DNA of 64,000 nt from Hansfordia pulvinata. Its lineage: Eukaryota > Ascomycota > Sordariomycetes > Xylariales. The stretch spans positions 3,596,001-3,660,000 of the forward strand of contig BJKQ01000001.1 in the NCBI GenBank assembly GCA_006538405.1. The letters run 5' to 3'. Below are positions 688 to 50,584 of this stretch, in pieces; within the stretch, counting starts at the first letter, position 1, and each line of letters begins with the position of its first letter. The notes under the pieces were generated by a model. It was not told the DNA's origin. It searched no databases and saw nothing but the letters and a program-made list of their open reading frames with translations. The position numbers and the translations under genes were made by a program.

Positions 688-3600
688 TTACCCACCTGGG
701 CACGTCTCGGTAACATCCGCCCCCACTTGCCCGCCGCCCACACCGCTCCCGAATATCTCATCCCGCCTGCTCTGTCGGTCCCACACCAGCAGCCCGTCGC
801 TCTTGCGCTTGAAGTACTCGATCCGGTGCTGCGGGATGAATTCCTCGTCCGTCTGCTCGCCTTTCCACTGGTCTAGCGGCCTCTCCATGATCCCCAGGAA
901 CCGGTCCTCGTACCCCACCACGTAGTCGCCGCTGTCCAGCCCTGCGTCCCATCGCAGCCGGTTGATGACGTCCGCCGAGGACCGGAACTTGCCCGTGTAA
1001 GCTGGCCGCTCCGGTATCGACGACTGCGCCTTGGGCCCGCCCTTTCCGTGTTTCCGACGCGACGACCAGGCCCCAGTCTCTCCGTGCGCCTCCCCTTCCG
1101 ACAGGTCCGCCTCCTCGAGCTCCTCCTCGTCCTCAGACCCGTCGTCGCCCGCCGTGAACTCGCCCCAAGCGCGATCGTCCAGTCGGAGGTTTCCCAGGTC
1201 CGCCTGCCTGACAACGGACGCGCTCATCCATGAGCACTTCCCATCGAAATACTTCTCATCGCCCCGGATCATATCCTCAAATCTCTGCAATGAGGTCTGC
1301 AGAGCTCCCATGGCCATCTTGACGTCCTCTTTCGAGACCAATCGCTCCGCAAAATCCTCCTGCCGGTCCAGACCTATCAGATAGTATCCCTGATAGTCCT
1401 TGTCCTCCTCGCTAGCGTCGCTGTCGACAAACCGCGCGGGCCAGATCCGCGCGTGGACGCTGGGGCTCCTCCGGTTCAAGTCTGCGCTCTTGTTAGGAGG
1501 GGTAACAACGTAGTTGACAGAGACGTGATTACTTACCAACGAGGAGCATCACGCACCGCGATTCTAGCCAGCCAACGAAGCCGCTGCCCTTGGCCAGCGA
1601 AACGCCCCAGAACTGCACGTCAATCTTGATGTAACTTTTGAATTTCCCCAGGAACTCATCGGCGCCGGTCGAGTCGTCACCCCCTGTCTGGCCGCCCAGA
1701 AAAGAGGACCAGGTTATGTCGTCCTGGCGGAGCAGCTCGCTGGCGCGCCTGAACTCGTCAGTGAGGGTCTGAACTGAGGGTGCCGACGCCGCGAGCGCCG
1801 TGTTCAGCACAGGAGCGTGGAATCCTAGGATCGCCAGGGGCTCCCGGGCCGTCCGCACGTAGCGCAGACGCTTGTGGAAGAAGGGGTCGAACGCCATCTG
1901 GTGCTTCCAGTCGAAGCTAGCGTAGTGGTCGAAGAACGTGGTGAGTACTGTCGACGCTGCCACAGGCCGGCCGTCGTGGGACAGGGCCTTGCAAACCCGC
2001 GCCAGCAGGACGGAAATATGAATGCCCCCAAGGTACCCGAATCTGGCCGCGTAGACGCCGCGCTGTCGGGCCCAGCACCGAATAAAGCGGTGCGCGAGCC
2101 GAAAGGTAGCCATGTCCGGCAATGAACGCCGCAGATAGTACAGGTCGCGAACGGGCTTGAGCTTGGCCAGCACCTGCGTGGACAGCGAGAAGACGGGGTC
2201 GCCGGAGGGCAGAGCCATGGCGCGCGGCCATGTCTCGGCGATGAAAGTCGACGGACAGTATTGGAGGTCCATCCTGATCCCGAGGACGTCGAGCTCGAGC
2301 ATGGTCCCCGAGTTGGCGTTGATCCGGCGCACAATACGGATGCCTGCGCCCTGGGCAGCCGCGCGCCGCAGGCGCTGGCCCGTCATGGTAAAGAAGGTCC
2401 GGGAGCTGACGGAGCCGATGCAGAGGCAGTCGATGTCCGACGAAGGCGACCAGACACCCAGCCCATAAGAGCCCACGGGGACAATGACCAGATCAGGCCG
2501 CCCACGGACCTTGCTGTCGCCCTCTTCGAGTACCACCTCCCGCAGCAGTCTCAGCGCTGCCTCTCGCTCATCCTTGTGAGCCTCTGTGGGGAAGACACCC
2601 CTCTGTGCAATACTGCTCTTGAGCTTCTGTGTATCCGACAGGTCTCCCAAGGCTGGCTTGACGTGAATCGGGACAGCAAGGTCGCTCTCGGTTTCGTGTC
2701 CTGAAGAAGATACGGTGCCGAGCTTCAACCTGCACCGCACTCCCCAGTGATCGCTTCCATAGGAGAGTCCTGTAGATGAATCTTCTGCTACTTTCTCCTC
2801 TTCTATCTCGCTGCTGCTTCGATCGACACTGCCGTCGCCTAATTCCCGCATGGTATGACCGAACAGATTGAAGCCGTCGACGTGCAAGAAGTCTCTCCCG
2901 CGGACATAAATCCGGTCATACCTTTGGGGGCGGTTATTGAGACCACTTCCAACAATACTGGCCGCCAGTTCATTGGTTAGCGGGTTGAAAGTTGCGCCCT
3001 CCTCGCCGGGCCCAACTTCGTCGTTCATCATTCCGGGGTCTTCGCAGTGGCTTCCAAACGCATTTCCTTGGACCCGGGACACAGACCAAGCGTCCACGAG
3101 CCCTGCATCGGCGAGCAGACTCTCGAGGGCTGGTAAATAGTCGGCAGTCTGGGAGGAGATGGCCCCACGCTCCAGCGCAGCCTGGATAGTAGCCGCGCTT
3201 GTTGGCAGATTCGTGTCGCCCACCACCAGCCAGGGGCTCTCCGGGTGTTCCCGGCGCAGATGCTGAATGACGGATTGTAGCTCCAATTTCTTGCTGGCCA
3301 CAGAGCCATCCGTGAGACCGCAGGTTAGGTGGATGGCAGCCAGAACGAGGGGTTTGGAGTAGTGACGGTCGTCGTCACTGGGGTTGCGCTTCCTGAACCC
3401 GTCAAACCTCACCACCACCGAGCTCTTGTGCCGCCTCCGTAGCGGCACGAATTTCCACTGGAATTGATATCTGCTCAGTACAACAATGTTCAGGTGGTTC
3501 GGAAGCGGGGCAATATCGGGTTGGCACGGGGGCCCGCTCGAGGCGTAAGGGTACTGGGCGCGCACGCTAGGATCGCGCAGTGCATACGACAGGAAGTCGT

Positions 3601-4582
3601 CTGTCACCTCTTGCAACACCAGGACGTCGGCGCGCCCCGCCGCTTCAAGCAGGTTGGCGACCACCAAGGGGTACCGGGCTGGCGACGGCGGGTGGAAGAA
3701 CTCGGCCAGCACATTGTAGCTTGCTACGGTCAAGCAGGATGCCGGCTCCGAAGTCTGCGATGACGGCGCAGGCCCTGAATGCGGCTCCGGCTCGACGACC
3801 CACTCCTGCTGCGCAAGGGAGAAACAATACGGCCTTCGATACGGCTCGGCGGTCCCAGAAATCTCGGAAGGTCCGTTTACGGCGTCGTAGAATGCTGTAG
3901 GGGAGGGTTCTATCGTCAGCGCCCCAGTGCCGAGGTCGAGGGTGCCCCAACGCTTCATGCTGCTGATCTGGTGGTCATCGCCCTGGGTCCCTTGGCGCTC
4001 CCGCACCAAAATACACACCTCTCCTATGTCGAGCTGAATGTCTGCCAGTAAGCTAGCCTTGTCGAGGAGGAACTTGTGCGGCGCCGAAGTGAGGTCTGCG
4101 CTCTGACCGATGGTCATGTGTGCCTGCCATGATCGGGGCTGAGGCAATGAGCTGGCCCCAACGGCTGTCAAAATAGTCTTCCTGAGTTCTTCAAGGCGCG
4201 CGCAGCGCTCGGTGTTGCGGTCACAAAGGTAGATCGTGTTGCTGCTATGGTTGACGAAGACGTCGGCTGTGTCCAGGTTGAGCGATAGGCCGGCATCTTT
4301 AGGAACGGCGTCTTGCTCGTCGGGTACCCTCCCTTTCCCATTGCTGTGCTGTCTCAGTGCGTAGGAAACGGCCTCAGCAGCCGCAGGCAGGTTCTGGACG
4401 GGCACAAAAGGGTACACGAGGTTGACGTGCGGGGGCCACTTCACGTAGGCCTTGTCGTGGTTCAAGCGAAGGCTGTCGATAGACGACCACGAAGACTTGG
4501 GCGGTAAGATGCAGATCGCAGTGTCGTGCGAGTCGACCGAGGATGAGTAGGCTGCGGTTTCTGATGCACGGTGGCCCGCCAT
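688..4582 (-). CDS. Four-module RNA-end processing protein: 2H phosphoesterase, EEP nuclease, poly(A)-polymerase-like nucleotidyltransferase, MJ1316/DUF504
   Basis: Two exons, complement(688..1481, 1537..4582), 1,279 aa. The 55-nt intron (GTAAGT...GCGCAG, phase 1) restores a continuous frame. Domains: 2H phosphoesterase with HVN at residue 52 and HMT at 155; an EEP-fold module with SYNVLAEF near 288, QEV, GDTNLP (D456), DRIYVRG and GSDHWG (H612); a pol-beta-type nucleotidyltransferase with GSYGLG at 704, D716xD718 and a later MDLQ aspartate, followed by PAP central and RNA-binding segments (KIDVQFWG, RIWPARF); an acidic linker; then MJ1316/DUF504 at about 1185-1260 (VINRLRW, VVGYEDRF, VWDR). 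Known of the families: 2H and EEP enzymes act on phosphoester ends, PAP-type transferases add nucleotides, and MJ1316 is a predicted cyclic-phosphate RNA-end binder. Inferred role: RNA-end healing or tailing. I chose the ATG at 4582 because the fold starts just after it; the frame stays open to 5038. The first 2H motif has Asn where Thr or Ser is usual. Confidence 0.85.
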
Positions 4583-6846
4583 AGCGAGCGGCTGTGGACG
4601 GCTTGCTTTGTGAATACACAGGTAGAGGATGGGTGGGTGGGTATGAGTATCAAGATAGTCAGGTGTTGCAACCCAAGTTGAAGCAAAGACAGACCGAGTC
4701 GCCGGTGCTGGTGTAGAATACTGAAATGGAGGTTGTTTGGGGGTTTCTAAGAAGGCTTGCAGACAAGATGCGAGGGGGCATTGCCATGACATATACTTGT
4801 TTGCAGCATGCGTAGTGACGATGCCCTCACTCCCTTTTCTTTCTTGCCTTCGAGGTCGTGATACGGCCGTGTGAACACGCGGTACCCGCCTGTCCGCCCG
4901 TAGTGCAGTGGCCTTGATGCCAGGGGTCCATCGCGCTAGAAGAAACGAGGTCTGTTCACTGGATAGCACCAAAGGCGCATATGCTAATAAGAGTCGCCCG
5001 GAGTGGCGAAGGTCCCAGGGGGCTGAGCCGGTAGCCACGAATCAAATTCAAGCAGCTTATTCAGACTCAGCCCTGGTCATGGAGGCGCCAGTCATCCGGG
5101 GTGACTCACGATCTTCGAACCGCAGTTGCATAGTGGGTTTAATGGGTAATCGGTATCGTACAGTAGCTGGAGGGCACAAGAGGGCAGGGCGCTGAGGCAT
5201 GATGTGATGTGATGTGATCGGCCATCATAGAGTGGTAGTTGTGGCCCTTCATCTGCTGTGACGAGGTGCTGCGGAACAGTGGATGATGGAGATACCTTCG
5301 GCTCGGATTGTGAGGTTGAGCGTGCCGGATCAGGTGCCAGCTGGCATTCAAGATACTGACTGTAGGTCATCCATTGGATGTAACCTAAGGTACATACGGT
5401 ACATGTAGACAGCCCGGTATGAACAATTGAATTTGATGTTGGGTCGACTGCACCTTCCACGCAAAATCGAACCGATCCATCAGAAACGACGGCATCGGCA
5501 GCCCCGTCGAAGCGGCAACCCGCTGTCTTGCCGGCAAGTGCGACCGTCCACCCGTGCACAATTGATCCCAATACGAGTACATACCTTATGTAAGGTACTC
5601 GTAGGTAGTAGGTACTCGTACACTTGACATCTGGCCCTTCCGTATCTTCGATGGCATCCCTCTGCCTGAAAAACGACGCACAAAAATCAACGCTCAACGA
5701 ACACAGCCAAGTCGTCATCATCACCACTCTGGCCGTCTGCCCTCGGCCTGACCCCTGCCTGACTCAACGACGACGAACGAGAGCTGCGACGAACGAGCCT
5801 TGGCCCCCAACACCCTGGACTGCGACGCCTGCGGGTTCCACGCACACCCTGGAACCATCAGAATGAATCATGCCCCGCCTGCCCCATCCTCCATCTGCCC
5901 GTCGACCGAAGCGGCGCGCTGCCCCCAGGCCCGGCCCTGCAACAAAAGAAACGTGCCAAAGCCGCGTCCCGGGTTCACGGGTCAGGCTAGATTCACCATG
6001 GCCTCCTGAACCCCAAGAATCGAACCATTTCGCGTCTCAGACCGGCAGCTTGTCTCGCAGTATACCACAAGCTTTTCCAGCCTCCAGTATTAATTAATTC
6101 ACCTCCCCGTCTCGCCAATTCTATCACTTTTCTATGTCCTGGATGGCGACACCGGAGCCGCGCCGGCGTCCTCGCTCGGCATGTAATCTAATAGCCCGGC
6201 CCACGTGTCTCTTCTCGTCTCCGCCCCCCCCCCCCCCCCCCCCCCTGCCCCATACAACCCATCCCCTTCTCCCCTTGCAGAGACGCCCCAGACCTCTGCA
6301 CCAAACAGGAGATCTGTAATATGAGCGACCCCCTCATGCCTGATTGGCTCGGGCAGCCCTCCGAGCCCTGACCGATTTTCGAATGAGACTAGGGACGTGT
6401 TGATCTAGATCAACATGATCTGATTGTTTCACAAGGCTAATGCATGTCTCTCCATCCCCATCGGCCCCAGCACAGCGTCGCGCGATTTGCGACTTCAACT
6501 CGTCCAGCGTTCTGCTCTCATCATTCTCGCGAGCAAGTGACGACACCCGTCCGATGATCTCGCCTGACGCAATGGCCAGAGAGCTGTCCCCTGCATGCAG
6601 CTCTTCAAGCCTCGAGTCCCCAGATCCAGCACCCGCCATCACACATCACGACCGCATCGTCGTCGCGGGTGAGGGCATGCGGCCTGATCGGTACCAGAGT
6701 ACCCCTTCTCATCCGTCTCGTCTACCTTCCGGGCGCCGCTGCTGTCACTTTCCGGCTTCGTGTAAACATTCTATCGCCCTTTGTCAGTCTGGCTTCTTCG
6801 ATCGATCGCGCGCAGTCCACCATTGACCCGGGAAGAGGAAAAAAGA
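4583..6846. other. Intergenic, upstream of the four-module gene and downstream of the desaturase
   Basis: No supported gene. It contains three exact TACTCGTA/TACGAGTA octamers (5572, 5596, 5613) and a 22-nt C run at 6224-6245. A 102-codon minus frame at 6334-6642 has plausible codons but no recognisable domain. Confidence 0.5.
6224..6245. repeat. Poly-C tract, 22 nt
   Basis: Uninterrupted C run, read directly. Length in the assembly may be unreliable. Confidence 0.9.
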
Positions 6847-8300
6847 TCAGGCGACACCTACTGCTTGCAACGTTTTTTCCGGGTTCGGCTCGACCCACTG
6901 GCATTTGGTGAAAGACTCCCAGAGCGCACCCCAGTATGAGCCCTGGTCAACATGGTAGTAGTCCCCGAGCAGGGGCTTGATGGCGTCTGTGGCCTCCTGG
7001 GCGTGGTAATGAGGGATGCGACTGTTGGAGCCGGTCAGCCTATTTCCTCGCCCCCGAGCGGCTTATATCATCCTTGAGACTTACGGGAACAAGTGGTGTA
7101 CAACATGCAAGTCAATAATGTGGTGCATGAGGTGTCTCAGCAGGAATCCAGGATCCCGGTCGACGGTCGCCAACGCGCCTCGCAGGTAGGTCCAGCTCTC
7201 AGGTGTGTACTTGGGCAGCGTGGGCGACGTGTGGTGGAGGTAAGTTATCATGACTTGTCTCACGGGTCAGCAATAGCTCCTCGCCACTCGACTGTGACTG
7301 ACGGGGTTGAGGAGGCCTCTGCGGGTTCCAGAACTTACCGATCCAGTGATTCACCCACATCAAGGGGACGCCGTAAGTCCAGACCATAGTCCAAGTCCCG
7401 AATTTCTGACACGCCACATAGACGAGATAGCCCATGGCAATAAGCCCGACATCGGACGCCGCGATATTCCAGAACTCGTTGCGACGGAAAAGCGAACTCC
7501 CAGGAAGGAAGTGGCTGTTGTCCCACCAGCCCTTCGACTTGTTGGGCGAGCTGTTGGGGCCCGCCGTGATGTGAGTGAGAAGATACCAGGGCCAGCCAAT
7601 AACCTGCTGGAGTACGATTCGCAGAAACACTACGACAGGGGCGTCCTCGGTCAACTCGTCTAGGTCCATCTTGCCGCGGAACAGCTCGGCGTACTCATCC
7701 CGAACAGGGGGAACATAGTTGAGGTCCGTTGACATGTTGTTGGCGTATTGATGGTGGCGGGCGTGGCTGGACCGCCAAGCAAAGTACGGGGACATGAGAG
7801 CCGAGTGAATGATGAAGCCGACAGTATTGGCGAGCCATCCGCTGGTCGAGAAGGCCCCGTGACCGCACTCGTGCGCCAACACCCACAACCCCGTCAGTGG
7901 CATCCCCACCAGGTATGGATACACGACATAGCAGACGATGAACCGGTTGATGGAGCCCAGATCAGTCTGGGCCTGGAGGGCCCAGGCCGTTCCAAGCAGC
8001 GCCGCGACAATGGCCGAGTCCCGAACCACGAAGCCCAGCGATCGCAGTGTCGACGGCTGCAGGCAATGCGCTGGAATGGCCTGGCGAAGTCTCTGCACAT
8101 CAATACTGACTTCTTTTCCATTGGACAGCGCTTGGATTTCCTAAAGACACATGATCGTCAGCCAAGTTCAGTCATCACGTGTCAAAACGTCATCACGAGT
8201 CATTGACGAAGGGGAGAAGATCAGTTCCCGATTTTGCTCGACTTACACCACCTTTGACTGCCTCTCCATGAATGGTCTCCGTTACCCAAGTGGTAGACAT
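6847..8300 (-). CDS. Membrane fatty-acid desaturase, delta-12/omega-3 (delta-15) type
   Basis: Four exons, complement(6847..7021, 7085..7253, 7339..8140, 8247..8300), 399 aa; introns of 63, 85 and 106 nt all start GTAAGT. The three histidine boxes of acyl-lipid desaturases are present: HECGH at 108-112, HARHH at 144-148 and HVVHH at 335-339, between hydrophobic segments. The first exon encodes only 18 residues ([18 protein letters not shown]). Such enzymes use di-iron and oxygen, with electrons from cytochrome b5, to desaturate oleoyl or linoleoyl chains in the ER. The short length and the sequence after box 3 ([13 protein letters not shown]) remind me of the roughly 400-residue fungal omega-3 paralogues rather than the longer (about 470 aa) delta-12 enzymes, so I lean to omega-3 or bifunctional. 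A TATA element lies upstream at 8517-8523. The family is certain; the regiospecificity is not. Confidence 0.9.
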
Positions 8301-43367: not shown

Positions 43368-45133
43368 ATGGACTCATCACCGCTCGCTGCTCTCCACCCG
43401 GCTCCCATACAGCCATGGGGGAGGGATCCTCTCAACTCCATGGCCGGAGCTAAGGACTTCGGCGCTGGCACTTTCAACATCCGTGAACGTCTGCAGCAGA
43501 CCAAGCCTGACTACTTCAGCATGCGGAGACCGTCTCCCTCGACCCTCGCTGCTGACATGTCCCAGAACTGGCGGATTGACTCTGAGTCGAGGTGAGCCTG
43601 TTGAGCACGACCGTGACCTTGATGATGCACTTGCTGACCGAACCCAGCCCCAAGTTCCCCACGCCTCGACGTGCTCTCTTCACATCGGCTGCCTTCGGTG
43701 GCGACACCCGGGTCACGACGCCACCCATGCCTGCCTCGTCGTCCCCCGTGCCCATGAGTGGCGACATGATGGACATCTCGCCTCTTCCCCACAAGGGCCC
43801 CCTGATGGCCACGATCGAGGTGACCTCCACTCCCACGCCGGGAGAACCCACACTGGAGGAGTCTATGATGAGCGATTCGCCCATCCCTATGAGCCGCCAG
43901 GGCTCCTTCACCTACGAGCAGCCCGCTGTTGCCCCCGAGCCTCGCAAGCGGATAGCACTTCGCAGACCCTCTCTGAGCCGCAGCAAGGTTCATTCCACCA
44001 GTGCGCTCCTGACCAGACTCCACCCTGAGAGCCAGACGGCCAACTTCCGGTTCGGACCCGAGACCCGTTTTGGAGGTGCCCTGGACATGTCCCCTGGCGA
44101 GTGTTTCCAAGACTCTCCTCCTCAGCCTCAAGAGAAGAGACCCCAGACGGCGAACAGCCCCTCTGCTAGCGGACCCATCTTCCGCCCCAAGCCTCAATTT
44201 GCCAGCTTAACCGGTACCAGGGACATCCGCAACGGCTCGCCTTTGGCCTCGCACTCGCGGCGCCCCTCGAACCCCTTCAACCGCCCCCGCCGGGCCTACC
44301 GCCGAACGCTGAGCATGTTTGAGAACCCGGGCGAGGTGGTCAAGCAAAAGTCCGAAGAGCCCCAGCCGCAGAGCAACCTGCAGTCTGTTATGGATGTGGA
44401 GGAGATTCAGGACCCGATTCTTCCTCATTTCTTCGGCAAGGACCAGAATGACTCAATCCCCCGCATCAGCAGAGAGACGTTTGTCGACATCTTGGACGGC
44501 AAGTACGCGGATCAGTACCAGCAGAAGGTCGTGATCGACTGCCGTTTCGAGTATGAGTACGATGGGGGCCACATTGACGGGGCCATCAACTACAACGACA
44601 AGGAGTTGCTGGCTAAGCAGCTCTTCCACACGCCCATGGAAGGCAAGACCCTCCTCATCTTCCACTGCGAGTACTCGGCCCACCGTGCTCCCATGATGGC
44701 TCGCCACATTCGTTCCGAGGACCGCACCATCAACGCCGAGTTCTACCCGAAGCTCAGCTACCCCGAGGTGTACATCCTGGACGGCGGATACAGCGAGTTT
44801 TACAACGAGCACCGCAACCTGTGCTACCCTCAGGCCTACGTGGAGATGCACGACTCTGAGCATGTCTTTACCTGCGAGCGTGAGCTTGGCAAACTGCAGC
44901 AGAAGCGCAAGGGTCTCAACAGAGCCAAGACATTTGCCTTTGGCCATCGCCAGGCCATGACCGAGTCTCCCACCGCCCCCGGCCGACTTGGCTCTCACCA
45001 GTCCCCTTGTGGCATGCTTGGGGCTTCTCCTATGCTTGGCGGCTCTCCCATGCTGGGCCACTCCCCTATGCTGGGCAACTCCCCCATTCTGGGTGCCGAT
45101 CGCTCTCCTGCACGCCGCATGGCGTCTTACTGA
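43368..45133 (+). CDS. nimT: M-phase inducer tyrosine phosphatase, Cdc25/NimT family
   Basis: Two exons, 43368..43591 and 43648..45133, 569 aa; a 56-nt intron (GTGAGC...ACCCAG, phase 2). The N-terminal 340 residues are Ser/Pro-rich and carry many SP/TP sites. The Cdc25-type rhodanese domain follows: ISRETFVDILDGKY, VVIDCRFEYEYDGGHI, AINYNDKELL and the catalytic loop HCEYSAHRAP, in which Cys415 and the Arg six residues on form the CX5R motif. YILDGGYSEFYNEHRNLCYP completes the domain. The enzyme removes inhibitory phosphates from the mitotic Cdk and so drives G2/M. The C-terminus contains tandem MLGxSP repeats (residues about 531-560). The 5-prime region from 42450 is pyrimidine-rich and may be a long leader. 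Identification is firm. Confidence 0.95.
45014..45100 (+). repeat. 18-bp coding minisatellite (MLGxSP) in nimT
   Basis: About four and a half copies of ATG-CTN-GGN-x-TCN-CCN near the end of the nimT coding region. Third-base differences show it is not a very recent expansion. Confidence 0.85.
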
Positions 45134-47191: not shown

Positions 47192-50100
47192 ATGGGCAAA
47201 AGCAACAAGCGGAAGCGCGAGGCCAAGGCGGCGGCGGCCAACGGCAATGCTCCCACCCCGGCCAACGCCTCGGCGCACGCGCAAAAGCGGGCAAAGACGG
47301 CCCACGGCGACGTCAAATTCGACGGCAACCTAGATGACGACCAGCCCAAGAACCAGACCCTCGACCTCGACAAGTCTCCCTTCTCCGAAAAACAGACCAC
47401 CGAAGACCGCAAACGCGAAGCCCACGTCTACGAGCTGCTCGGCAGCGCCGACATTACCGAGCGCCTGGCCGCCGCCGATGCCCTGGCGACGGGCCTGCTG
47501 GGCGGCGAGGGCTCGCCCGAAGCCGTGCTGGAACGTCACCTCGAGAAGCGCCTATTCAGAGGCCTCGCCAGCTCCCGCAACGCTTCCCGCGTCGGGTTCA
47601 GCCTTGTCTTGACCGAGATCCTCAGCCAGCTGTTTGGCGCCAAGAAGCTCTCGGCCTCGCGCTACCCGGAACTGACCTTCGACAAGGTCCTCGGCATCCT
47701 GGTCGACAAGACGCAGTCGGGCGGCAATGTCCCTGGCCAGGAGGAGCGTGACTTCTTCTTCGGCCAGCTCTTCGGCCTGCAGTGCTTTGTCGAGGCCAAG
47801 ATCCTGTTCGGGGAGGAGGACGATTCGCGCTGGGCCAAGGTTCTTGACCTCCTGCTCAAGATCGCCGACAAAAAGGTCTGGCTGAGGTCCCAGTGCGGCT
47901 GGATCATCGTGCAGGCGCTGCCTCAGATGGGCCGCGAGCGCGCCCAGCACACACTGCAGCAGCTCTCCGACCTGGGGCTGGGCAAGACGGCGGAGGGCGT
48001 CGGCATCTGGCTGCAGGCGCGCAACGTCTACTCCCACATCAAGACCCCGGCCAAGCCCTGGAGGGACCCCCTGGCGTCCGGCAGCATCCCCGAGGTCGCC
48101 AGAGTCCTCAAGGAGAGGGTCAAGCAGGACACGGGCGAGGATGCGGGCGCGGCCAAGCAGAAGCAGAGCAACTGGACGGCCCAGCTTCACTTTGTCTGGG
48201 ACCTGATCCTGGCCTCGTTCAAGGACACCCAAGGCTCGAAAACATACGACAAGGACCAGTTCCGCCAGTTCTGGTCCACAGTCGTCGACGGTAAGCTCTA
48301 CTCTGCCCGCTCCCTGTCCGTCGACCAGCCGGATCTAACACCACGCAGAGGGTCTCTTCTCCAAGGGCGCCACGGACGGCCAGAAATTCCGAGGCTTCAT
48401 GCTCTTCCGCCGGTTCCTCGAGAGCTTCCAGTCCGACAACAAGGCGCTGGTCAAGGAGCTCTTCTCCAAAAACCTCATGTCCTGCCTGATGAACCAGGCC
48501 GCGCAAGAAGACCGGTACCTCCACCTCGCTGCCGTCAAGACCCTGAAGTGCATCGAGCAGACCGTGGAAAAGTCTCCCGAGCTGCTTCTGCCGATCCTGC
48601 AGGAGATCCTGGGCAAGCGCGGCGTCTTCACGTTCGACCAGCGGACGAGCTCGAAGACGGTCGAGAAGTTGCTCCAATCCGTCACGTCAGTCAACGTCGA
48701 GGCCGTGATGAAGCTCCTTCGGTCGTACGTCGAGTCCATGCCAAAGTAAGCCGTCTTCCGCCCCGCAGGCCCTCCGTGCAGCTTTTACTGACAGCCCCTA
48801 CCAGGAGAGATGCCACCGAGATTGAGAACTTCCGCCAGGTGTACGGCCACTACATATTGAAAATGGTCACGCGGCCCAGGCCGGCCGGCGAGAGCAGCAA
48901 GGAGTCGGACATCTCGCTGGTCGTCAGCCTCGGCATGGCGGACCTGGCCGAGCTCGCGTACTCCGCGGCGCCGTCGTTCGAGCCCGAGTTGTCGCCGAAG
49001 ACGCGCGAGGTGTTCCGCAGCCGGTTGTCGTCGGGGCTGGCGCGGATCGCCCGGCGCCGCGACGACTTCGAGGCCATCTGCGACGCCGTGCTGGCCGTCA
49101 AGCCCACGGCCGTCGCGATGAGCGCCGAGATCGAGGCCGAGAGGGACGCGGCGGTCAAGACGATCCGCAAGCTGGTCAAGGCCAGCCGCAAGCACCAGCC
49201 GTCTTCAGGGTCCGGCGGCGGCGGCGGCGGCGACGTCGGCGCGTCGCTCGGCCTCGCGCTCCTGTATGCCGTCACCGTGCTACAGCTGTACGACGGCGCG
49301 CCGGACGCCATGAACATCCTGCAGGACCTCAAGGGCGTGTCGGACCGGTTCAAGGACAAGAGCAAGGGCAAGGACAAGGGCAGAAGCAAGAGCGGGGAGG
49401 AGGAAGACGGTGGAGCCTCGGAGCTCCTCGTGGAGATTCTGCTGTCGCTCATCTCGCAGCCGTCGTCGATGATGCGCCAGATCAGCCAGCAGGTCTTCGA
49501 AGCCTTCACGAGCCAGATGACGGCCGGCGCCCTCGACCTCCTCACCGAGCCGCTGCTGGCCGAGGAGAACACCAAGGGCTACCAGGCGCTGTTTGAGAAC
49601 CTTGACGACGAGGAGATGGTCGACGCGGACGATGACGACGACGAAGACGAGGAGGCGGGAGACGATGACGATGATGACGTCCAGGATGTCGAGGAGGACG
49701 ACATGTCGGAGATCGGATCCGACGTCGAGTTTGTCAACCTGAACGGCGCGGACGCCGAGGACGGTGACAGCGAAGACAAGGACGACGAGAACGATGACGG
49801 CGACGACGACGAAGACGACGAGGCGGACGCCGAGGCTGAAGAGCTTGCCGACCTAGACGACAAGCTGGCTCAGATCCTCAAGAGCCGGCGGCTAGACCAG
49901 GCCGAGGGGGCGGGCAGCGACGGCGACGGCGAGTCGGACGACGAGTCGGACATGACCGACTCGGAGATGATGGCCCTGGACGAGAAGCTGGTCGAGATCT
50001 TCAAGCAGCGCAGCAAGAAGAAGAAGGAGGACGGCGGCAAGAAGGACGCGAAGCAGTCGGTGCTGAACTTCAAGCGGCGGGCGCTCGACCTGCTGGCCAT

Positions 50101-50584
50101 CTACCTGCGTGCCGAGGCGGGCAGCGCCGTGGCCCTCGGCGTGCTGCTCCCCCTGCTGCAGCTCGTCCGCACCACGACCGACAAGCCCCTGTCCAACAAG
50201 GCCATTGAGACCATCTCCGACTTTTCCAAGGCGCTCAAGAAGAAGGCGCGCGACCAGAACGAAAAGAACACCACCACCACCGACGACGACAAGGACGACG
50301 AGGCGAGCGCGGCGGCGGCGCCAGCAGCGGACAAGGAGACGCAGCTGGAGCTCCTGCGCGCGATCCACCGCGAGGCCTTCGCGGATCCGGCCCACGCGTT
50401 CGCGCGCGCCGCGTCGACGGCCAGCCTGGTCCTCGTCAACAGCCTGGTGGCCGCGGACCGGGCCAGCGTCCGTGACGTCGCGGCCGTCTACGCCGAGACG
50501 CAGGCCGACTGGTTCGGCGTGCGCCGCCCGCCGGTGCTCTTCTCCGACTGGCTCAACTGGTACCAGAGCCAGGCGACCAAGTGA
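47192..50584 (+). CDS. pol5: Pol5 / DNA polymerase phi, Mybbp1a-family rRNA processing factor
   Basis: Three exons, 47192..48290, 48349..48745 and 48805..50584, 1,091 aa; introns of 58 nt (GTAAGC...CACGCAG) and 59 nt (GTAAGC...TACCAG). The N-terminus is Lys/Arg-rich (KSNKRKREAK), fitting a nucleolar signal. It is followed by HEAT-like helices (VYELLGSADITERLAAADAL, RLFRGLASSRNASRVGFS, KAKILFG-like repeats, FMLFRRFLESFQSDN). Residues about 770-900 hold Asp/Glu tracts, then NFKRRALDLLAIYLR and the terminal FSDWLNWYQSQ. This order is that of yeast Pol5 and vertebrate Mybbp1a, which act in the nucleolus in rRNA synthesis and 60S assembly; the polymerase name is historical. Unspliced sequence is also open throughout (1,130 codons), so a naive call would misread exon 2. 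Exon 2 in the spliced frame gives the conserved helices. Confidence 0.93.
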   Translation: MGKSNKRKREAKAAAANGNAPTPANASAHAQKRAKTAHGDVKFDGNLDDDQPKNQTLDLDKSPFSEKQTTEDRKREAHVYELLGSADITERLAAADALATGLLGGEGSPEAVLERHLEKRLFRGLASSRNASRVGFSLVLTEILSQLFGAKKLSASRYPELTFDKVLGILVDKTQSGGNVPGQEERDFFFGQLFGLQCFVEAKILFGEEDDSRWAKVLDLLLKIADKKVWLRSQCGWIIVQALPQMGRERAQHTLQQLSDLGLGKTAEGVGIWLQARNVYSHIKTPAKPWRDPLASGSIPEVARVLKERVKQDTGEDAGAAKQKQSNWTAQLHFVWDLILASFKDTQGSKTYDKDQFRQFWSTVVDGKLYSARSLSVDQPDLTPRRGSLLQGRHGRPEIPRLHALPPVPRELPVRQQGAGQGALLQKPHVLPDEPGRARRPVPPPRCRQDPEVHRADRGKVSRAASADPAGDPGQARRLHVRPADELEDGREVAPIRHVSQRRGRDEAPSVVRRVHAKVSRLPPRRPSVQLLLTAPTRRDATEIENFRQVYGHYILKMVTRPRPAGESSKESDISLVVSLGMADLAELAYSAAPSFEPELSPKTREVFRSRLSSGLARIARRRDDFEAICDAVLAVKPTAVAMSAEIEAERDAAVKTIRKLVKASRKHQPSSGSGGGGGGDVGASLGLALLYAVTVLQLYDGAPDAMNILQDLKGVSDRFKDKSKGKDKGRSKSGEEEDGGASELLVEILLSLISQPSSMMRQISQQVFEAFTSQMTAGALDLLTEPLLAEENTKGYQALFENLDDEEMVDADDDDDEDEEAGDDDDDDVQDVEEDDMSEIGSDVEFVNLNGADAEDGDSEDKDDENDDGDDDEDDEADAEAEELADLDDKLAQILKSRRLDQAEGAGSDGDGESDDESDMTDSEMMALDEKLVEIFKQRSKKKKEDGGKKDAKQSVLNFKRRALDLLAIYLRAEAGSAVALGVLLPLLQLVRTTTDKPLSNKAIETISDFSKALKKKARDQNEKNTTTTDDDKDDEASAAAAPAADKETQLELLRAIHREAFADPAHAFARAASTASLVLVNSLVAADRASVRDVAAVYAETQADWFGVRRPPVLFSDWLNWYQSQATK

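Follow-up and report, generated by a model that had tools for sequence, protein, structure and literature searches.

A single spliced gene of Hansfordia pulvinata encodes a protein of 1279 residues in which Pfam matches and alignment place, in this order, a 2H phosphoesterase, an EEP module, a poly(A) polymerase (PAP) and an MJ1316 domain, and the fusion protein is widespread in Pezizomycotina. The presence of four modules in a single polypeptide, first claimed in our initial annotation of this DNA, was borne out by exact coordinates, one spliced frame and Pfam matches. We see about an even chance that this one polypeptide both heals and tails broken RNA 3' ends, with activities that we infer from its modules. 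The conservation of all four in one protein makes the RNA-repair prediction for MJ1316 directly testable.

Gene structure and the four modules

The gene lies on the minus strand of the window, that is, of the whole 64,000-nt stretch of DNA that was analysed, with the following features.

688..4582, minus strand: whole gene, encoding the 1279-aa protein (spliced translation; alignments cover 97-99% of the query for most of the 120 homologues listed)
4582-1537, minus strand: exon 1, with its ATG at 4582 (spliced translation)
1481-688, minus strand: exon 2, stop codon included, ending at 688 (spliced translation)
1482..1536, minus strand: 55-nt GT-AG intron, GTAAGT...CTAAC...CAG (junction uninterrupted in 111/116 homologues)
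3992..4504, minus strand: 2H phosphoesterase, residues 27-197, with H52-x-N54 and H155-x-T157 (PF13563, E 5.7e-24)
2747..3724, minus strand: EEP, residues 287-612, with N290, E325, H418, D456, N458, D556, D611 and H612 (PF03372, E 6e-8)
1366..2659, minus strand: canonical poly(A) polymerase, residues 642-1054, split by the intron, with D716, D718 and D772 (Pfam, PAP gamma alignment and fold)
775..984, minus strand: MJ1316 domain (PF04457), residues 1182-1251 (E 3.7e-20)

The GC content of the gene at codon positions 1, 2 and 3 is 0.63, 0.47 and 0.75, which is coding-like. In the alignment of long homologues the region of the splice junction (residues 1008-1024) had neither gap nor insertion in 111 of 116 proteins, was gapped in three and carried insertions of 17 and 20 residues in the other two. 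Two genes misread as one were ruled out by the single frame and the conserved splice junction. The catalytic residues named beforehand (HxN/HxT, N290, D456, H612, D716 and D718) proved correct, the third aspartate of the PAP being D772, and profile detection of the EEP and MJ1316 modules, which had been set in advance as a test of the architecture, gave Pfam matches above the cut-offs for both.

The 2H module matches 2_5_RNA_ligase2 (PF13563) with 85.3 bits against a cut-off of 27. Enzymes of this superfamily have two HxS/T motifs in which the histidines serve as acid and base and the serine or threonine coordinates the substrate and aids catalysis, according to one passage of a published account (PMC7026655). 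The Hansfordia protein departs from this signature in its first motif, which is HxN, while the second is HxT and both histidines are retained. Of 245 aligned sequences, 234 have N at the position of N54, nine have T and two have S, both S apparently misaligned; H52 is present in 243 of 243 ungapped sequences among the Hansfordia protein and 341 homologues, partial ones included, a set in which the catalytic columns are near-uniform where ungapped. Because both histidines are kept despite the HxN motif, 2H catalysis seems plausible from the sequence, not given. The single 2H match in the PDB by sequence profile was B. subtilis BSU11850 (2d4g), not Usb1.

The EEP module matches Exo_endo_phos above its cut-off (33.1 against 24.5 bits) and has both the catalytic N/E/D/N/D/H set and the predicted fold of the superfamily, with N290 in 288 of 290 and H612 in 300 of 301 ungapped sequences of the same set. 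Its predicted model (m6c84590fe085, pLDDT 84.5) is nearest in fold to TDP2, chains of which take the first 37 places in Foldseek and the first 20 rows of VIA, and the sequence profile gave a weak, non-significant match to TDP2 (E 0.7). The nucleases CNOT6L and ExoIII are also among the fold matches; ANGEL2 was absent among the 50 listed EEP fold matches and Usb1 likewise from the fold lists, which excludes neither. As modelled, the EEP appears to fold most like TDP2 and not like a CCR4 deadenylase, an assignment to CCR4/ANGEL being still possible, not favoured. Of the earlier interpretation of the protein as one that heals, trims and tails RNA, the architecture thus stood, whereas the reading of the EEP as a CCR4-type deadenylase was disfavoured by the fold comparison.

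The PAP module has the nucleotidyltransferase, central and RNA-binding domains of a canonical PAP together with the three aspartates, and its predicted fold is complete. PAP_central (residues 826-950, E 1.7e-13) and NTP_transf_2 (E 2.3e-4) are both above the Pfam cut-offs, PAP_NTPase (642-740) is slightly below its own (24.6 vs 27 bits), and the alignment to human PAP gamma (E 1.7e-21) spans residues 642-1054, RNA-binding domain included, exceeding the Pfam extent of 642-950. D718 was found in 306 of 314 and D772 in 298 of 316 ungapped sequences of the set described above. The genome, with 46.8 Mb in 63 contigs and searched for families in six frames, unspliced, encodes another canonical PAP on contig 2, with 25% identity to the PAP of the fusion protein. 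This identity rules out a recent duplicate of the host PAP, and judged by sequence the module is an old paralogue of that enzyme. With a canonical PAP of such low identity (25%) encoded elsewhere in the genome, the fusion protein is unlikely to be the PAP that serves housekeeping mRNA polyadenylation.

PF04457 matches the MJ1316 module with 72.8 bits against a cut-off of 26.3 and was found nowhere else in the genome by the six-frame search, without splicing. This is the best-conserved module, with a median identity to the query of 76% vs 45-61% in the other three. A PDB sequence search with the domain gave no match at E 10. Pfam names the domain for a predicted RNA-repair role, and it is predicted to recognise 2',3'-cyclic phosphate ends.

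Distribution of the fusion and alteration of its catalytic residues

The full-length search gave 555 matches among 7,997 scored candidates, of which the best 120 were listed, and with the C-terminal and N-terminal halves as queries there were 162 and 230 matches, again with the best 120 of each listed; the candidate sets were capped in size. Of these 120 best full-length matches, 109 combine the four Pfam signatures within a single predicted protein and 11 are without one or more, PF22669, which we take to be an EEP family, being counted as such for one row of the 109. All 12 chosen signature residues of the four modules are identical in 110 of the 116 homologues of at least 1150 aa. Named matches among those listed belong to Sordariomycetes, Geoglossomycetes, Lichinomycetes and Candelariomycetes (the lineages of four names were looked up), and further listed matches from Coccidioides, Aspergillus and Pyrenophora presumably represent Eurotiomycetes and Dothideomycetes; no named match outside Pezizomycotina was seen among the matches listed. 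Some homologues are apparently split into 2H-EEP and PAP-MJ1316 proteins, like Trichoglossum GP486_004231/_004232 (P0272, P0201), which have consecutive locus tags and equally long contigs, and metagenome pairs on equally long contigs, e.g. P0314/P0209 and P0249/P0188. Some of these splits are probably gene-calling artefacts, and EEP absence was therefore not accepted at face value, as some "absences" may be gene-model splits. In P0154, P0177 and P0195 the EEP is missing and the PAP triad is intact.

The 341 homologues were scored with domain HMMs for the EEP set (N290, E325, D456, D556, D611, H612) and the PAP triad, which is altered in 26 and unreadable or absent in 29. Where it could be read, the triad was altered in 5 of 267 proteins with an intact EEP, in 6 of 10 with an altered EEP, in 11 of 14 with no EEP (17 of 24 for these two groups combined) and in 4 of 21 with a partly covered EEP. 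Such an association of an altered PAP with a missing or altered EEP would be expected of modules that work in the same pathway. Among the 26 altered-PAP proteins the 2H module is missing in 19, cut in one and kept in six, and the MJ1316 signature is kept in 23, the other three having no MJ1316 match. The named ones come from Hypoxylon, Daldinia, Annulohypoxylon, Xylaria, Candelaria, Candelina, Pycnora, Delitschia, Ophiocordyceps and Emericellopsis and the remainder from metagenomes.

Trees were made with FastTree and a quick IQ-TREE search from 93 rows, including 24 of the 26 altered ones (two had too little PAP). With both programs the altered-PAP label changes 12 times, at least 10 of these changes being forced by starred branches, and because most rows are intact the changes would be losses, not gains. 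A Fisher test on the tree rows (58/7 vs 4/16) gave p 1e-8, ignoring relatedness. Sign tests on independent pairs were not significant: for EEP and PAP, 9 pairs on starred branches gave 3.5 same, 1.4 opposite and 4.1 with no difference (median p 0.63); for 2H and PAP the counts were 2.3, 0.0 and 6.7 (p 0.5); and for EEP scored by residues, 6 pairs gave 2.7, 1.0 and 2.3 (p 0.63).

For the comparison of conservation we took positions with at least 95% conservation among intact proteins, and 23 altered rows that have both domains. PAP positions, triad excluded, were changed at 11.9% in altered vs 2.8% in intact proteins (63 rows, leave-one-out; p 6e-7, relatedness ignored), and MJ1316 positions at 1.7% in both (63 rows, leave-one-out; p 0.52, relatedness ignored). 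A first, in-sample comparison of MJ1316 had given 0.7% for intact vs 1.7% for altered proteins (p 0.025), a difference that was gone under leave-one-out. When 23 intact rows were drawn at random and held out (200 draws), PAP was changed at 3.1% (maximum 5.0%) and MJ1316 at 2.0% (maximum 4.8%); for the 23 intact rows of greatest divergence, of which 20 have both domains, the values were 8.2% and 4.6%. As far as these sequences go, altered proteins show relaxation of the PAP, a modest one by comparison with the most divergent intact rows, and none of MJ1316. Because MJ1316 is as conserved as in intact proteins, the altered forms look like pseudoenzymes, not pseudogenes.

It is possible, and in our judgement unlikely, that the co-loss reflects gene decay instead, the altered-PAP proteins being pseudogenes, RIP-mutated or mis-predicted and thus uninformative on module function. 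The steady MJ1316 argues against decay, both beside the higher PAP change and in the comparison with the most divergent intact rows, as does the presence of named genomes of several classes among the altered rows, although some of these rows come from metagenome assemblies and the lineage sign test is not significant. At the altered PAP residues D to N is the commonest change, which is compatible with C-to-T mutation, and RIP-like mutation may therefore have played a part; the many changes to S, T, E, K, Q or G fit RIP less simply. Several stand-alone PAP-MJ1316 proteins have their own leader ahead of the PAP, and these leaders are alike in three Hypoxylon proteins.

A proposed route for broken RNA 3' ends

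In the scheme that we propose, the C-terminal MJ1316 domain would hold the 2',3'-cyclic phosphate that cleavage by metal-independent RNases produces, in line with the predicted role of its family, and the 2H module would open the ring to a monophosphate, as its superfamily suggests. The TDP2-like EEP may then remove the phosphate in the manner of ANGEL2, or trim the end, so that the PAP module, with its predicted fold and catalytic triad, could add A to the freed 3'-OH. PAPs require a 3'-OH, and healing before tailing is therefore the natural order. The tailing would either direct the RNA to decay by the exosome or restore a functional tail. A precedent within the EEP fold is ANGEL2, which converts 2',3'-cyclic phosphate to 2',3'-OH via 2'-P in the relevant parts of two reports (PMC13247085; also PMC12265940), the second of which ties ANGEL1 to non-stop decay (PMC12265940). 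The conservation pattern suggests that some lineages dropped catalysis and kept MJ1316, perhaps as a non-catalytic RNA-end binder. Points against the scheme are the HxN motif, the 5'-end substrates of TDP2, the non-significant co-loss and the predicted status of the MJ1316 cyclic-end role. If the scheme is true, broken RNA could have its cyclic phosphate healed and then be polyadenylated instead of being ligated. The natural forms with altered catalytic residues offer a ready test of MJ1316 acting alone. Tentatively, and with more doubt than confidence, we suggest that filamentous ascomycetes may have a one-protein RNA-damage pathway that turns cyclic-phosphate into A-tailed ends, dispensable and of conflict type, in which catalysis was repeatedly lost while the end-binding MJ1316 remained under selection, making the enzyme an RNA-end sensor or decoy.

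The same modules might serve the trimming and re-tailing of ncRNA 3' ends, with the 2H module as a Usb1-like exonuclease, the EEP as another exonuclease and the PAP re-adding A, which would make the cyclic phosphate a product. Usb1 is a 2H protein with 3'-5' exonuclease activity, after which cyclic phosphates are left, as stated in a section of PMC7026655. Nucleases, CNOT6L and ExoIII for example, also occur among EEP folds. We consider this improbable, since the 2H module matches PF13563 and finds BSU11850, not Usb1, in the PDB, HxN/HxT is kept here vs two HxS in Usb1, MJ1316 would bind the product, and an essential ncRNA enzyme should not change catalytic residues in many lineages.

The known substrates of TDP2 are 5' ends. 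An EEP acting on 5' adducts or blocked ends, protein- or nucleotide-linked, would have both RNA ends cleaned in an antiviral or quality-control role; the TDP2 chains that head the fold comparison speak for this, but the sequence similarity is not significant and the other three modules are 3'-end modules by family, which makes the idea very doubtful. Signalling of the 2'-5' oligoadenylate type, in which the transferase would make a nucleotide signal and AKAP7-/PDE12-like 2H and EEP modules would degrade it, is hardly credible.

Away from the fusion gene, the genome contains a single PF09511 match, on contig 6, for a T4-type RNA ligase domain like that of Trl1, which we infer to be Trl1, and a Tpt1 match; there was no match to RtcB in the six-frame unspliced search. 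A Trl1-type ligase domain with Tpt1 and no RtcB match is in keeping with healing of cyclic phosphates by ring opening in this fungus. The genome also has a second 2H gene and 11 EEP matches, the fusion protein counted; no RNA-repair partner beside the gene was seen by eye among open frames of at least 260 aa in the window.

Comparison with known systems

Diverse eukaryotic fusions of MJ1316 to RNA-repair domains are mentioned in a passage of PMC6514570, citing Burroughs and Aravind 2016, so that a repair fusion of MJ1316 is in itself no new idea; the joining of MJ1316 to such domains is what the fungal protein has in common with them. Among the papers listed by open-access full-text searches there was no study of the fungal 2H-EEP-PAP-MJ1316 protein, nor an assay of any eukaryotic MJ1316 protein. 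Our own analysis yielded the likeness of the EEP to TDP2, the full extent of the PAP, HxN as the first 2H motif and the repeated alteration of catalytic residues. Vertebrate LENG9 has a CCCH zinc finger with its MJ1316, whereas there is no zinc-finger family among the seven Pfam matches (E 1) of the fungal protein. LENG9 has a 2H domain and is not known to have a PAP or an EEP.

ANGEL1 and ANGEL2 share the EEP fold and the proposed reaction with the fungal protein, but they are CCR4-family EEPs and the fungal module is nearer to TDP2 in fold. Trl1, which opens cyclic phosphates, has a ligase and a kinase for sealing, whereas the fungal fusion has a polymerase instead, and no ligase domain is among its Pfam matches. 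Tpt1, which works with Trl1, removes the 2'-phosphate, according to an excerpt of PMC6456296. Pap1, Pla1, PAPOLA and PAPOLG have the complete nucleotidyltransferase-central-RNA-binding fold and the triad in common with the fusion PAP; from canonical PAPs, of which the host's own is the one 25% identical, the fungal fusion differs by its three extra modules. In the databases many homologues are named "polynucleotide adenylyltransferase", few "nuclear poly(A) polymerase 1" and many "hypothetical protein".

Variation in the first 2H motif

The first 2H motif reads HxT, not HxN, in the homologues P0289, P0297, P0305, P0308, P0311, P0316, P0317, P0337 and P0207 of the four-module protein. Since some homologues carry HxT at this site, the HxN form may represent a derived state.

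2H and EEP matches elsewhere in the host genome

Profile searches of the host genome (G000) found a second gene for a 2H protein, whose product could be a stand-alone cyclic phosphodiesterase:

G000:C5:643786-644364 (contig C5), locus L007, PF13563 match with E 2.8e-7

The same approach placed EEP matches on contigs C23, C29 and C32 (loci L011, L012 and L013, respectively), which are of the same length, score nearly the same and lie in open frames of 623-1284 aa; these three loci may be copies of the endonuclease of a non-LTR retrotransposon.

Other open frames in the window

Upstream of the four-module gene lies an open frame whose histidine boxes resemble those of fatty-acid desaturases, and two further frames have, on reading by eye, a likeness to known protein types:

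7199-8098, minus strand, histidine boxes HECGH and HARHH
43592-45133, plus strand, CDC25-type phosphatase-like open frame
47192-50584, plus strand, apparently Pol5-like open frame

The intergenic stretch upstream of the four-module gene also contains a run of approximately 20 C (about 6226-6245).
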